64,000 bases of DNA from Armatimonadota bacterium (GTDB taxonomy: Bacteria; Sysuimicrobiota; Sysuimicrobiia; Sysuimicrobiales; Humicultoraceae): contig JAVKHP010000001.1 in assembly GCA_031459855.1 (NCBI GenBank), positions 1 to 64,000 of the forward strand, read 5' to 3'. Under the pieces are notes generated by a model. It made no database searches, was not told where the DNA came from, and saw only the letters and a list, made by a program, of their open reading frames with translations. How positions within the stretch are numbered: the stretch's first letter is position 1; each line of letters starts with the position of its first letter. Position numbers and translations under genes: made by a program. Below are positions 42,140 through 48,304 of this stretch, piece after piece.

Positions 42140-45100
42140 TCAGTCGACGGGCTCGAGCGGCGCGTAGGCCAGGGCCAGCCGCTTCACGGCGCCGGCGAAG
42201 CGGACGGTGACGATCGCGCCCGCGCCCTCGCCTTCCACCTCGAGCACCTGCCCCTCGCCGAACTTCGCGTGCCGCACACGCGCGCCGACCGCAGGGATGG
42301 CCGTCGCGGCGCGGGGCCCTGCCGCCGGCACGGCCGCGGGCTCCCCGGGCCCTCCACCCCACCGCTCCCGGGGAGGCGCCGCCACCACCAGCGCCGCGGG
42401 AACCTCGTCGAGGAAGCGCGACGGGATGGCCAGGTGCGTGGCGCCGAAGACCGTGCGGGTGCGGGCGTGGGTGAGGACGAGCCGACGCTTGGCCCGCGTG
42501 AACCCCACGTAGCACAGGCGCCGTTCTTCGTCCAGGCCCCCCTCCTCCTCCATCGCCCGGGCGTGCGGACAGAGGCCTTCCTCCAGGCCGGCGATGAAGA
42601 CCACGGGGAACTCCAAGCCCTTGGCGCTGTGCAGGGTCATCAGCGTCAGCCGGTCGAGGTCGTCGCGGTAGGTGTCCACGTCGGCCACCAACGCCAGGTG
42701 CTGGAGGAACGCGGCCAGGTCGATCTCGCCCGTGGCCTGCTCCACCTCCTGCGCCACGGTGACCAGCTCGCGCAGGTTCTCCAGCCGTGAGAACGCCTCG
42801 TCGGTGCCTTCGGCTTCCAGCATCGCCTGATAGCCGGTGAGCGCGATCGCCCGGGCGATCACCTGGCTGGCCGGCAGCCGGGCCGCCAGGTCACGGAGCT
42901 CGGCGATCAGCCGGGCGAAGGCCTCCAGCGCCCGGGCGGCTGGCCGGGGGACCTCCGCCAGCGCCTCGGGCCGCTCCGCCGCTTCCAGCACCGTGCACCC
43001 GGCGGCCTGCGCGTAGGCGACGAAACGCTGCAGCGACGTCTCCCCGACCCCGCGCCTGGGCGTGGCCAGGGCCCGCCGCAGGCTCGACAGGTCGTTGGGG
43101 TTGACGACCAGGCGCAGGTACGCCAGCAGGTCCTTGACCTCCCGGCGCTCGTAGAACCGCACGCCGCCCACGACCTGGTAGGGGAGGCCAGCCCGCAGGC
43201 ACGCCTCCTCCAGCAGCCGCGACTGGGCGTTGGTGCGGTAGAGCACCGCCACGTCGCGCAGCCGGCCCCCGGCCGCGAGGTGCGCCCGGACCTCGTCGAC
43301 GATGAACTGCGCCTCGTCGGCCCCGTCGGCGGCCTCGTAGACCGTCACCGGCACGCCGTCCTCGTTGGCGGTCCAGAGGTCCTTGGGGTGGCGGTGCGGG
43401 TTGTGCTGGATCACGCCGTGGGCGGCGGCCAGGATCGTCTTGGTGGAGCGGTAGTTCTGGGTGAGGGTGACCACGGTGGCGTCGGGGTAGTCGTGCTCGA
43501 ACTCCAGGATGTTGCGCACGTCGGCGCCGCGCCACCGGTAAATCGAGTTGTGGACCAGGACGCCGCCGGCGACGTAGCTGCGCAGGTCCGGGACCTCCAG
43601 GTCGAACACCAGACCCGTGTAGTGCGCGATGCCGCGCTCGACCACCTCGTCTTCGACCACCCGTCCGTCGCGCACCACGCACAGCCGCATGCCAGGATGC
43701 ACGTGCCCCAGCGGCATGACCAGATGCACCGGCGACGTCGACCGGGCTGTGGCATCCTGACGCACCGCGGCCACGCGGGCGCGCACCACAGGCTCCCCCT
43801 CCACCAGCGCGGCCAGACGGCGCGCCATCTGCCAGCCGGCATCGTAGTCGCGGCGCGCCGTTTCTACGCGCCAGACCGCGGCGCGGCTCTCCCGCGTCGG
43901 GTAGGCGCGGGCCACCCGAGCGCGCAGCGCCTCGCCGCTCGTGACCAGCTGAATCCGGTGATCGGACCACGCCCGATGACGGTAGCGACGGCCATCGCCG
44001 AACATGGTGAAGTAGACCAGCCGGCGGGCTGTCTGCCCGCGGACCACCGCGCCGGCGCGCAGGTGCGGATACTCGGGGCACATGGCCAGGTCGGCCAGCA
44101 GCCGATGCGCACGCGCTTCGGTCGCGATCTCGCGGAAGATCCGGTCCACGTGCGCCTGCTGGAGACGCATGCGCCGCCCACGGACGTGGAACACCGTGGT
44201 CGGGATCCCGTAGGTGAACGCGTACAGTTGCTCCAGACAGGCAGCCTCGGCGTCGTCGCGCGCGGTGGCCAGAATCCACAGCCGGTCGGCCACCATGCCG
44301 TTCAGCCGCAGGCCTGGCCCGTTGCCCACCACCCCGGCCGACCGGCTGCGCACACCCCTGCTGCGCCCGACCCGGAATCCCACGCCCCGTCGGTGCATCA
44401 GGTAGACATAGTGCATGTCGGGTTGTGGCACGACACGCGCGAAGACCAGGTGGTTCGGGGTCGCGGTGAGGCTGTGGCCGCCACGGGTCCGCACCGTGAC
44501 GACCGGGCCGGTGTAGGGCTGCCGGCGTACCGCTGCCACGGCCTGCGCCGCCAGCCGACCGCTGCCGCACGCCGCCCATACGGGCGTCCCCGGCGTGAGC
44601 GTCTCGATGGCCTGCGGTCCATTGGGGCCGTCGATCAGCGTCCCGAGTGGCAGACACTGGTCGTCATCGCCCACCACCGTGACGTTGCGCCAGCGGCCGG
44701 CCAGCGCGCGCACCAGCAGGTACTGAGCGTGGTTGGTGTCCTGGTACTCGTCGACCAGCACGTGGAGGAAGCGCTCCTGGTAGCGGGCCAGGACGTCGGG
44801 GTGCGTCTCGAACAGCCGCAGGACCTCGCACAGCAGGTCGTCGAAGTCCAGGGCCCCCTCCTCGCGCAGCCGCGCTTCGTACGCCCGCCAGGCCCGCGCG
44901 GCCGCCTCCTCCAGGTAGGTCCGCGCGCGGGCGGCGAAGCGGTCGGGGTCCAGCGCGTCGTCCTTGGCCCGGCCGATGATGGCGTGGAGCACCTGCGGCG
45001 GGTAGCGGCGCTCGTCCAGTCCGAGCGCCTCCATGGCCTGCCGCAGCACCCGGCGCTGCTCCTCCTCGTCGTAGATCGTAAACGTCGGGGGAATGCCGAT

Positions 45101-45406
45101 CGCCGCGCCGTCCTGGCGCAGGATGCGGCTGCAGATGGCGTGGAAGGTGCCGATCCACATCGGCCGCGCGACCGCGCCGCCCAGCAGCAGCTCCAGGCGC
45201 TGGCGCATCTCGGCCGCCGCCTTGTTGGTGAAGGTGACGGCCAGGATTCGCGCCGGTGGCACGTCCCGGGCGCGGATCAGGTACGCGATGCGGTAGGTCA
45301 GCACGCGGGTCTTCCCCGACCCGGCACCGGCGAGCACGAGCAGCGGCCCCCCGGGGTGGGTAACCGCCCGCCGTTGTTCGGGGTTCAGGTCGGCCAGCAG
45401 GTCCAT
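42140..45406 (-). CDS. pcrA: PcrA/UvrD DNA helicase precursor with an intein
   Basis: A superfamily 1A 3'-5' helicase used in repair and removal of stalled complexes. The 1088-residue precursor has Walker A GAGSGKT (27-33), TFTNKAAAEM, GTFHAICSRILR, Walker B VDEYQD (218-223), then motif III split after GDDDQ (246-250). The sequence resumes SIYRWRGAD at 621, followed by LTQNYRST, LMTLHSAKGLEF, YVGFTRAK and the C-terminal Tudor-like KFGEGQVLEVEGEG tail of PcrA. Removing residues 251-620 leaves a normal 718-residue helicase, so splicing is needed for function. It starts at the ATG at 45406. It is downstream of guaA (95-bp gap) on the same strand. Confidence 0.95.
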   Translation of the reverse strand: MDLLADLNPEQRRAVTHPGGPLLVLAGAGSGKTRVLTYRIAYLIRARDVPPARILAVTFTNKAAAEMRQRLELLLGGAVARPMWIGTFHAICSRILRQDGAAIGIPPTFTIYDEEEQRRVLRQAMEALGLDERRYPPQVLHAIIGRAKDDALDPDRFAARARTYLEEAAARAWRAYEARLREEGALDFDDLLCEVLRLFETHPDVLARYQERFLHVLVDEYQDTNHAQYLLVRALAGRWRNVTVVGDDDQCLPLGTLIDGPNGPQAIETLTPGTPVWAACGSGRLAAQAVAAVRRQPYTGPVVTVRTRGGHSLTATPNHLVFARVVPQPDMHYVYLMHRRGVGFRVGRSRGVRSRSAGVVGNGPGLRLNGMVADRLWILATARDDAEAACLEQLYAFTYGIPTTVFHVRGRRMRLQQAHVDRIFREIATEARAHRLLADLAMCPEYPHLRAGAVVRGQTARRLVYFTMFGDGRRYRHRAWSDHRIQLVTSGEALRARVARAYPTRESRAAVWRVETARRDYDAGWQMARRLAALVEGEPVVRARVAAVRQDATARSTSPVHLVMPLGHVHPGMRLCVVRDGRVVEDEVVERGIAHYTGLVFDLEVPDLRSYVAGGVLVHNSIYRWRGADVRNILEFEHDYPDATVVTLTQNYRSTKTILAAAHGVIQHNPHRHPKDLWTANEDGVPVTVYEAADGADEAQFIVDEVRAHLAAGGRLRDVAVLYRTNAQSRLLEEACLRAGLPYQVVGGVRFYERREVKDLLAYLRLVVNPNDLSSLRRALATPRRGVGETSLQRFVAYAQAAGCTVLEAAERPEALAEVPRPAARALEAFARLIAELRDLAARLPASQVIARAIALTGYQAMLEAEGTDEAFSRLENLRELVTVAQEVEQATGEIDLAAFLQHLALVADVDTYRDDLDRLTLMTLHSAKGLEFPVVFIAGLEEGLCPHARAMEEEGGLDEERRLCYVGFTRAKRRLVLTHARTRTVFGATHLAIPSRFLDEVPAALVVAAPPRERWGGGPGEPAAVPAAGPRAATAIPAVGARVRHAKFGEGQVLEVEGEGAGAIVTVRFAGAVKRLALAYAPLEPVD
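43547..44656 (-). mobile_element. Intein inside the PcrA helicase (370 residues)
   Basis: Residues 251-620 of the precursor. The first residue is Cys (CLPLGTLID, block A), block B is GHSLTATPNHLVF with the Thr-x-x-His pair, and the C-terminal block F/G is TGLVFDLEVPDLRSYVAGGVLVHN (shown in pieces: GLVFDLEV then VAGGVLVHN) ending His-Asn, followed by Ser as the first downstream residue. All residues for class 1 protein splicing are present. The site, between GDDDQ and SIYRW of motif III near the ATP-binding centre, is a classic place for inteins. The middle (about 330-550) has no LAGLIDADG or HNH motif; it holds HYVYLM, FRVGRS and YGIPTTVF. Confidence 0.93.
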
Positions 45407-45500
45407 GGTCCGCCGTTCACTATATCGGTCGGCGGGCCGACGTGCCAGGGACGCCCGGGCCTGCAGGCGGTGGGGCGCGGGGAGACCGCCGCCCGCCGGC

Positions 45501-47081
45501 TCACTCCCACTCGATCGTCGCCGGCGGCTTGCTGGTGAGGTCGTAGACGACCCGGGTGATGCCCGGCACCTCGCGGGTGATGCGGCTGGCGATGGCCTCC
45601 AGGACCTCGTCGGGTAATCGCGCCCAGTCGGCGGTCATGCCGTCCTCGCTGGTGACCGCGCGCACCACCACCACCTGCCCGTAGGTGCGCGCGTCGCCCA
45701 TCACGCCGACCGTGTGCACCGGCAGCAGCACGCCGAAGGCCTGCCACAGCTGTCCGGTCAGGCCGGCCTCGCGCAGCTCGTCGAGGATGATGGCGTCGGC
45801 CTCGCGCACCAGCGCCAGCTTCTCGGCCGTCACCTCGCCCAGGACGCGGATGGCGAGCCCGGGGCCGGGGAAGGGATGCCGCATGACCATCCGGTCGGGC
45901 AGCCCCAGCTGCCGGGCCACCTCGCGCACCTCGTCCTTGAAGAGGTCGCGGAACGGCTCCACGAGCCGGAAGGCCATGCGCTCGGGCAACCCGCCCACGT
46001 TGTGGTGGGTCTTGATGCGCGCTGCGGTGCGCGTGCCGCTCTCGATCACGTCGGGGTAGAGCGTGCCCTGCACGAGGAAGTCGATCCGTCCCAGGCGTGC
46101 GGCCTGCTCCTCGAACACCCGCACGAACTCTTCCCCGATGATGCGGCGCTTCTCCTCGGGGTCCACCACGCCCCGCAGGCGTGTCAGGAACCGGTCGCGG
46201 GCGTCCACGTGGACCAGCGGGATCTGGAAGGTGTCGCGGAACGTGGCCAGGACCTGCTCGGCCTCGCCCTTGCGCAGCAGGCCGTGGTCCACGAAGACGC
46301 AGGTGAGCTGGTCCCCGATGGCGCGATGCACCAGCGCTGCAGCGGTCGCCGAGTCCACGCCGCCCGACAGGGCGCACAGCGCGCGACCGTCGCCCACCTG
46401 CGCGCGGACGGCGCTCACCGCCCGCTCCACGAACGACGCCATGGTCCAGGTGGGCTCGCACCGGCAGACCCCGTAGAGGAAGTTGCGCAGCACCTCGACG
46501 CCCCAGGGCGTGTGGGACACCTCAGGGTGGAACTGCAGGCCGTAGAGGCGCCGGGCGCGATCCGCCATGGCCGCGATGGGGCTGCGGTCGGTGTGGGCCA
46601 GCACCACGAACCCCGGCGGCAGGGCCACGACCGAGTCGCCATGGCTCATCCAGCAGATCAGACGCGGTTCCAGTCCCACGAAGAGATCGGTCCCGTCGTC
46701 CACGAACAGGCGCGTCCGGCCGTACTCGCGCTGGTCGGCCGCCGCGGTGCGCCCCCCGAGCAGGTGAGCCATCAGCTGCATGCCGTAGCAGATGCCCAGG
46801 ATCGGGATGCCGGCGCCGAAGAGCGCCGGGTCCACCCGCGGCGCGCCGGGCGCGTAGACGCTGGCCGGCCCGCCGGAGAGCACGATGCCCTGCGGCCGGT
46901 AGGCCAGCAGCTGGGCGATCGGCGTGTCGTAGGGCAGGATCAGGCTGTAGACGCGGGCTTCGCGGATGCGGCGCGCGATGAGCTGCGCGTACTGCGCGCC
47001 GAAGTCCAGGACGATGACCGGCCGCTCCTGGGCCGCCGACGCCGGCAACGGCTGGGCCTGCGCGGCGGCCTGGACCGTCAC
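45501..47081 (-). CDS. guaA: GMP synthase (glutamine-hydrolysing)
   Basis: GuaA converts XMP to GMP with glutamine and ATP. The 526 residues have a class I glutamine amidotransferase ([20 protein letters not shown], nucleophile in GICYGMQ, HPEVSHT), an ATP-pyrophosphatase domain with [14 protein letters not shown] and [11 protein letters not shown], and the dimerisation domain ending KPPATIEWE. The GTG at 47081 overlaps the guaB3 stop by four bases (GTGA), supporting this start; a short Ala/Gln-rich leader of about 18 residues precedes the domain. It is third in hpt-guaB3-guaA. Confidence 0.97.
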
Positions 47082-48304
47082 CGCGCGCGTCCCTGCCCGA
47101 CCTGCTGGTTGAACTGCGCCGCCTTGCCCTCGACCCCCAGCTGCGGCGCCAGCACCAGCTCCACGCGGTGCATCTCGCGGATCGTGGCCGCCCCACACAT
47201 GCCCATGGCGGTCCGCAGGGCCTCGGCCAGGTTGTGCGACCCGTCGTCGGTGGCCGCCGGGCCCAGCAGGATCTGCCGCAGGGTCCCCGTGGTGCCTACC
47301 CGGATGCGCGTGCCGCGCGGCAGCGCTGCGTGCGGGGTCGCCATGCCCCAGTGGAAGCCGCGGCCGGGCGCCTCCGCGGCGCGCGCCAGCGCCGAGCCCA
47401 GCATGACCGCGTCGGCGCCGCAGGCGATGGCCTTGACCACGTCGCCCCCGGTGGCGATGCCGCCGTCGGCCACCACGGGCACGTAGCGGCCGGTCCTGGC
47501 CAGGTAGGCGTCGCGCGCCGCGGCGACGTCGCAGATCGCCGTGGCCTGCGGCACCCCGATGCCGAGCACGCGCCGGCTGGTGCAGGCCGCGCCCGGCCCG
47601 ACGCCCACGAAGACGGCCGCCGCGCCCGCTTCCATGAGGCCCAGGGCCGCCTCGTACGACACGCAGTTGCCCGCCAGCACCGGCACGCCGAGCGCGTCAG
47701 CCAGCCGGCGCAGCGAGAGCGCCCGTCCCCGCGTGGACCGGTGGGCCTCGGTGATCACGGTGGACTGGACCAGGACGAGGTCGGCCCCCGCCTGCTGCGC
47801 GATCGGCGCGAGGCGCGCGGCCGCCGCGGGCGTCACGGACACCGCGCAGACCGCGCCGGTCGCCTTGATGGCGCGCACGCGCGCAACCACCAGCTCGTCG
47901 CGGATCGGTGCCTGGTACAGGCGCTGCAGCAGCGCGACGACCTCGTCCGACGCTGCCGCGGCCACGGCAGCCAGCGGCTCGGCGGGATCCGCATAGCGGG
48001 TCTGCAGCCCTTCCAGGTTCAGCACCGCGAGACCGCCCAGCCGCCACATCGCCTCGGCCATCCCGACGTCGACCACGCTGTCCATCGCCGCGGCGAGGAA
48101 CGGCAGGCGGAAGACATGCGGTCCGAGCTGCCAGGAGGTGTCGACATCCTCGGGGTCGAGGGTCGACGCCGCGGGGACCAGCGCCACGTCCTCCAGGCTG
48201 TAGGTCCGCCGGACCATGCGGCCCCGGCCCAGCCACTCGCCCCCGCCGGCGGGATCCGCCACGCTCGCTGCCGGTGCGTCGATGCGCGTCGCCATCTCCT
48301 TCAC
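47078..48304 (-). CDS. GuaB3-family IMP dehydrogenase-like protein
   Basis: 408 residues of the IMPDH/GMP reductase barrel without CBS domains, matching the GuaB3 group of Actinobacteria and Cyanobacteria. Features are [22 protein letters not shown], the catalytic loop [18 protein letters not shown] with the active cysteine, [23 protein letters not shown] and the terminal [17 protein letters not shown]. Placed between hpt and guaA with a four-base overlap to guaA, it probably supplies XMP from IMP. Whether a canonical guaB also exists in the genome is not visible. GTG 48304 is used; ATG 48295 is alternative. Confidence 0.88.

Follow-up and report, generated by a model that had tools for sequence, protein, structure and literature searches.

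The window analyzed here, a stretch of 64,000 nucleotides, carries a pcrA/uvrD gene whose helicase frame is interrupted within motif III by a long in-frame insertion. This raises the question of what kind of element the insertion is, and what the large segment at its center, on which the initial annotation was silent, contributes to it.

Splicing anatomy of the pcrA insertion

The gene (42140..45406, on the minus strand like the other features of the locus given below) encodes a precursor of 1,088 aa, the helicase halves of which matched the PcrA profile TIGR01073 (1e-256, NCBIfam profile search), together with matches to the UvrD-helicase, UvrD_C, and PcrA tudor domains. Translation of the region delimited an N-extein (44657..45406) that comprises the helicase up to the GDDDQ of motif III and ends in VTVVGDDDQ, an insertion of 370 aa running from CLPLGT to GGVLVHN without an internal stop (43547..44656), and a C-extein (42143..43546) in which the frame resumes as SIYRWRGADVRN and extends from SIYRWRGADV to the end of PcrA, including the tudor domain. 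The first residue of the C-extein is a Ser (43544..43546), the predicted second splicing nucleophile. The initial annotation had described an interruption of 370 residues lying between GDDDQ and SIYRW at 43547-44656, starting with Cys, ending with His-Asn, and followed by Ser, and had predicted a spliced product of 718 residues; the translation reproduces this description to the residue, and the length agrees with 1088-370 = 718 aa.

The further proposal of an intein inserted in motif III of PcrA/UvrD was borne out by class-1 residues, by Hint profile and fold matches, and by the empty sites of relatives. Cys1, a block B reading T66-P67-N68-H69, H369-N370, and the Ser at +1 are present here and kept in the relatives. 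The N-terminal half of the Hint domain (residues 1-76, 44429..44656), which holds Cys1 and the TPNH of block B, matched the NCBIfam intein N-terminal splicing model TIGR01445 at 27.3 bits (cut-off 24.5), and the C-terminal half (residues 311-370, 43547..43726), ending in His369-Asn370, matched the C-terminal splicing model TIGR01443 at 17.6 bits (cut-off 15.6). The Pfam Intein_splicing profile aligned with residues 330-370 (1.8e-7) at 31.5 bits, below its cut-off of 35.8, and reached 2.9e-16 in a relative and 59.4 bits in the relative at locus L019. Both Hint halves were modeled by AlphaFold with a pLDDT of ~90, and when the model of the entire intein was compared with the PDB (Foldseek), the top matches consisted only of inteins and Hint domains, including those of the Hedgehog type, a result that reflects Hint/intein structures and is uninformative on the central insert. 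The initial annotation had named two observations that would speak against an intein, namely the absence of a Hint-domain profile match and the occurrence of the same 370 residues in helicases known to be unspliced; both NCBIfam models pass their cut-offs, and no such occurrence was found. On this anatomy, the insertion is a class-1-type cis-intein in motif III, predicted to be capable of splicing.

Reading the same residues as an insertion domain that stays in the helicase unspliced draws on the fact that splicing is deduced here from sequence anatomy, and we regard it as barely credible, given that Cys1, a TPNH-type block B, the terminal HN, and Ser or Cys at +1 are conserved in relatives, that a Hint fold is predicted for both halves, and that an unspliced insert would break motif III beside the ATP site of the helicase. 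In the splicing route that we propose for the intein, the two Hint halves (residues 1-76 and 311-370) would together excise the 370 aa autocatalytically via Cys1, the block-B TxxH, His369-Asn370, and Ser+1, joining GDDDQ to SIYRW and yielding a normal 718-aa helicase. Because splicing would restore PcrA, which is essential in Bacillus, where its loss is lethal (PMC7385302), the intein would be lost only by exact removal.

The GC content of the intein does not differ from that of the pcrA gene, no mobile elements were seen adjoining it, an Rfam search around the gene returned no match, and a search of plasmid sequences with most of pcrA as query gave only short matches, to pcrA of other genera. 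Antisense open reading frames over pcrA (e.g., 43280-45538 on the plus strand) were rejected as GC-rich artefacts because PcrA explains the locus. Just upstream of pcrA, an open reading frame at 45501-47198 of the window (minus strand) reads by eye as GMP synthase (guaA). A second intein of the same genome (G000:C1:950578-951501, minus strand, locus L124) lies in the P-loop of the replicative helicase DnaB, with the junctions GK/C...HN/T, and is of an already known kind.

A GIY-YIG-like module in the central insert

The Hint halves are separated by an insert of ~230 aa (residues ~77-310) that holds two modules. The first (residues 80-163, 44168..44419) reads HYVYLMHRRGVGFRVG...R...LRLN...DRLWIL...EAACLEQLYAFTYGIPTTVF, and its alignment across 33 inteins, from helicase and methylase hosts alike, revealed that Y85, L86, M87, R95, G97, W127, E142, Y149, and P152 are invariant (33/33), that residue 94 is always aromatic (W/Y/F, 33/33), and that R117 is present in 32/33. 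The codons of Y85, G97, R117, and E142 lie at 44402-44404, 44366-44368, 44306-44308, and 44231-44233, respectively. These residues sit as expected for a GIY-YIG active site, with the Tyr on strand 1 and the aromatic-x-hydrophobic-Gly on strand 2, and the model places R117 in the first helix and E142 in the helix that follows strand 3, again the expected placing. The AF2 model of the insert (pLDDT 84.8, pTM 0.81, from the alignment of 33 sequences) gives the order b82-89, b93-100, a113-120 (bearing R117), b125-132, a135-149 (bearing E142), and a167-177, and this b-b-a-b-a-a succession is the GIY-YIG order of elements. The literal GIY and YIG tripeptides are absent, their places being taken by xVY...(W/Y/F)R(V/I)G, so that GIY is without its first G, and W or F frequently replaces the Y of YIG; the SLX and T5orf172 control sequences likewise depart from the literal motifs, reading YVYIL...YTG and YIYIL...KIG.

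Structure and profile comparisons point in the same direction with different weight. In BFVD, a library of viral structures, the insert first matched three apparent inteins of like design within phage proteins, two of these proteins being annotated solely as helicase or adenine methyltransferase. Of the next 47 matches, ~11 are named GIY-YIG, T5orf172, NUMOD3, or homing endonuclease, with the enrichment in GIY-YIG at E 0.03-0.6 and the matches outside inteins individually weak (E 0.03-0.8). Aligned with hhalign against a combined UvrC+SLX+T5orf172 profile, the module scored 20.9 (P 0.0037) with the motifs in register (YVYLM opposite YVYI, RVG opposite YIG, and E142 opposite the family Glu), compared with a best score of 17.4 among 37 PcrA windows from an unrelated alignment that served as null; the position of the conserved Arg varies between alignments (R105 or R117). 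Against the T5orf172, SLX, and UvrC profiles singly, the register was partly right at P 0.003-0.08, and these comparisons therefore have supporting value only. No Pfam or NCBIfam profile detected the module, the insert gave no convincing Pfam match in any of the 33 relatives, and neither a sequence-profile search nor a Foldseek search of the insert against the PDB gave a match (for Foldseek, a significant one). Matches to Phage-tail_3, YwpF, and DUF families were dismissed as chance, being single, weak, and inconsistent between relatives. Weighing these lines together, we hold with good confidence that module 1 belongs to the GIY-YIG superfamily, and we name it GIY-YIG-like because it had neither a significant solved-structure match nor a sequence-profile match.

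All conserved residues of the nuclease module are present in the intein of the window. The identity of the module to relatives is 0.68-0.79 as against 0.50-0.61 for the N-terminal Hint half, and between this intein and that of the related genome G010 the module shows dN 0.12/dS 1.55, whereas the N-terminal Hint half shows dN 0.41/dS 1.73, a contrast in dN/dS which suggests that the function of the module has been kept.

The module is followed by a two-helix linker (residues 164-200, 44057..44167), delimited by conservation and the AF2 model, with a conserved YPH near its end, and then by a second module (residues 201-290, 43787..44056) with a predicted b-b-a-b-b-a order. Module 2 is present in the helicase inteins and absent from the methylase inteins. 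In modular homing endonucleases the DNA-binding part comes after the nuclease (PMC3943268, PMC10448857), and module 2 may bind DNA, as we conjecture from where it lies relative to the nuclease and from a faint resemblance to the MotA DNA-binding domain (E ~1, Foldseek PDB), a match on which we do not rely.

Combining the two halves of the analysis, a cis-intein with an embedded GIY-YIG-like homing endonuclease in motif III of PcrA is the best explanation of the locus, one that we consider likely. The endonuclease, of an as yet unnamed GIY-YIG-like type with Y85, the aromatic residue 94, G97, R117, and E142 as putative active residues, would cut the conserved motif III codons of intein-free pcrA, module 2 of the helicase inteins would recognize the DNA around these codons, and recombination repair of the cut would copy the intein into the empty allele.

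Relatives, decay states, and probable movement

Among 43 genomes surveyed in the phylum of the window, a homologous intein occupies the identical pcrA site in six, the window's included, and in 27 genomes, some of them from the genera of carriers, the match runs through the site without a break over 122/122 aa. The comparison with intein-free PcrA that the initial annotation had proposed thus returned continuous empty sites in relatives, reading GDDDQ-[S/A]-IY where checked. Many empty relatives have Ala at +1, with which the intein could not splice; the carriers seen have Ser throughout, or Cys in several Clostridia. Two named relatives (L013, L015) are labelled ANGP1, a name now placed under Candidatus Sysuimicrobiota.

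Pattern scans recovered the same cis-intein, at 33-42% identity over its full length, at the same site in PcrA of Clostridia, including Marinisporobacter, Petromonas, and Clostridium thermopalmarium; carriers amount to 7 of 391 genomes in the class of C. thermopalmarium. We also observed Cys at +1 in seven of ten clostridial carriers (L027-L032 and L019 among the loci) and Ser in 25 of 27 intein-free Clostridia (L156-L185), so the +1 residue of the extein may have changed together with the intein. In phages, UvrD-like helicases carry the intein at motif III (L020, L034, L035, L036, L039), and ParB/N6-adenine methylases carry it at ...WxHEP/C in many phages, including prophages of Streptococcus suis. 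The helicase at L036 (IMGVR_UViG_3300009514_000001) has GIY-YIG-like inteins at both motif II and motif III, and its P-loop threonine is preceded by the end of a third intein. A plasmid of Providencia rettgeri (NZ_CP077319.1, ~18.3-20.5 kb; L021 1753-3861, plus strand) encodes a 702-aa ParB/N6-methylase with this intein, in a stretch where the gene table of PLSDB has no entry.

The relatives include several reduced states. In a clostridial PcrA intein (L032, G143:C12:51027-51746) the nuclease module is deleted entirely, with module 2 and Hint retained, the intein of G007 is without 23 residues of module 2, and a mini-intein without any nuclease occupies the phage methylase site at L085. Presence and divergence also vary among close relatives. 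Within genus g13, the exteins of G019 and G020 are 91% identical and their inteins 67%, with G021 empty; within genus g7, G009 is empty yet groups with the intein-bearing G010 as its sister. For Streptococcus phages, 70 records contained the methylase extein DNA and 15 the intein. Between Javan599 and Javan575 the intein is 98.7% identical and its flanks 95.1% and 91.6%, and phiNJ3 has an intact empty site with flanks ~95% identical to Javan599. A mismatch of intein and host divergence in both directions is expected of a horizontally moving element, and horizontal movement, presumably by homing, is supported by this pattern and by the distribution of the intein. Apart from the within-genus mismatches, the bacterial intein tree follows the host tree at the family level, and old residence with loss therefore also appears to play a part; most of the divergence in bacterial hosts is compatible with vertical residence of this kind.

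Two other readings of the central insert have to be weighed against these data. The intein could be an ordinary one whose insert is a highly diverged LAGLIDADG or HNH endonuclease, with a fortuitous likeness to GIY-YIG nucleases: the endonucleases of inteins are mainly of the LAGLIDADG type (PMC5050341, PMC8966425), and the b-b-a-b-b-a of module 2, which reads FTMFGDGR, resembles part of a LAGLIDADG half. We consider this quite improbable, for searches of nine whole inteins and 33 inserts, with E values allowed up to 10, gave no match to either type of profile, no LAGLIDADG structure appeared for the insert among the PDB matches listed, the methylase inteins appear to move without any second module, and Y85, G97, and E142 (33/33) and R117 (32/33) are conserved in a b-b-a-b-a-a topology. 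Less improbable, and still unlikely, is a module of GIY-YIG descent that is no longer a nuclease here, in an intein kept vertically or as a regulatory splicing switch of PcrA. The losses of pieces in kin (23 residues of module 2 in G007, the whole nuclease module in G143/L032) and the family-level agreement of intein and host trees fit such retirement, but the conserved residues of the intein of the window are intact, the module is more constrained than the N-terminal Hint half, and the within-genus presence and absence, together with the 91%/67% mismatch of g13, favor movement.

Relation to known inteins and GIY-YIG nucleases

In textbook accounts, the endonucleases associated with inteins are of the LAGLIDADG or, rarely, the HNH type. 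The class-1 inteins PI-SceI, PI-PfuI, and Tli VMA, which matched the fold of the entire pcrA intein best in the PDB, share with it an endonuclease insert in Hint, the splicing residues, and a conserved active-site motif as insertion site; unlike their LAGLIDADG inserts, that of pcrA has neither the LAGLIDADG motif nor a match to its profile, and has GIY-YIG-like residues and topology instead. With T5orf172, including that of ICP1 (PMC10448857), SLX, UvrC, and the phage homing endonuclease I-TevI, the module has in common the Tyr on strand 1, the aromatic-x-(I/V)-G on strand 2, the Arg in helix 1, the Glu after strand 3, and a nuclease followed by a possible DNA-binding part, but it differs from these branches in the absence of a profile match, in its own YLM, RVG, W127, and YGIP, and in its location inside a Hint domain. 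Among inteins of UvrD/Rep/PcrA helicases (PMC5874633) the host family is the same, whereas the reviewed sites are in the P-loop and the present one is in motif III.

An association of inteins with GIY-YIG genes has precedents of another form. Dassa et al. reportedly described, in 2009, fractured genes in which a GIY-YIG gene of its own separates the two parts of a split intein. In the AceL NrdHF split intein (PMC7891396), the GIY-YIG gene is likewise free-standing between the halves, whereas the pcrA intein is continuous and has its GIY-YIG-like module encoded in frame. A survey of the superfamily in 2006 did not find GIY-YIG nucleases in inteins (PMC1564403), and the HNH case is attributed to Dalgaard 1997, as cited in PMC5050341 and PMC8966425. 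Among the open full-text papers examined, we found no report of a GIY-YIG nuclease embedded in a cis-intein, and the novelty of the embedded module is accordingly provisional.

Extending the argument beyond the window, we think it probable, with less assurance than for the pcrA locus itself, that bacteria and phages share a widespread, unrecognized class of cis-inteins built with an integral GIY-YIG endonuclease domain, a third type of endonuclease captured by Hint; for this class a decay series and empty sites exist. The hosts in this class are PcrA/UvrD at motif III, phage UvrD at motif II, and phage ParB/N6-adenine methylases. If this is true, Hint domains captured the GIY-YIG fold too, in two unrelated host genes and in at least two bacterial phyla as well as phages; the full, decayed, and empty states would together serve the study of the homing cycle, the modules would be a source of small single-chain candidate site-specific nucleases for testing, and the class would account for a domain that has gone unannotated in helicases and methylases whose names reflect host function alone. 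One phage methylase (L065, IMGVR_UViG_3300028048_003164) was seen to carry two inteins, one of them GIY-YIG-like and the second, further on, with the LAGLIDADG-like motif GYMAGDG.
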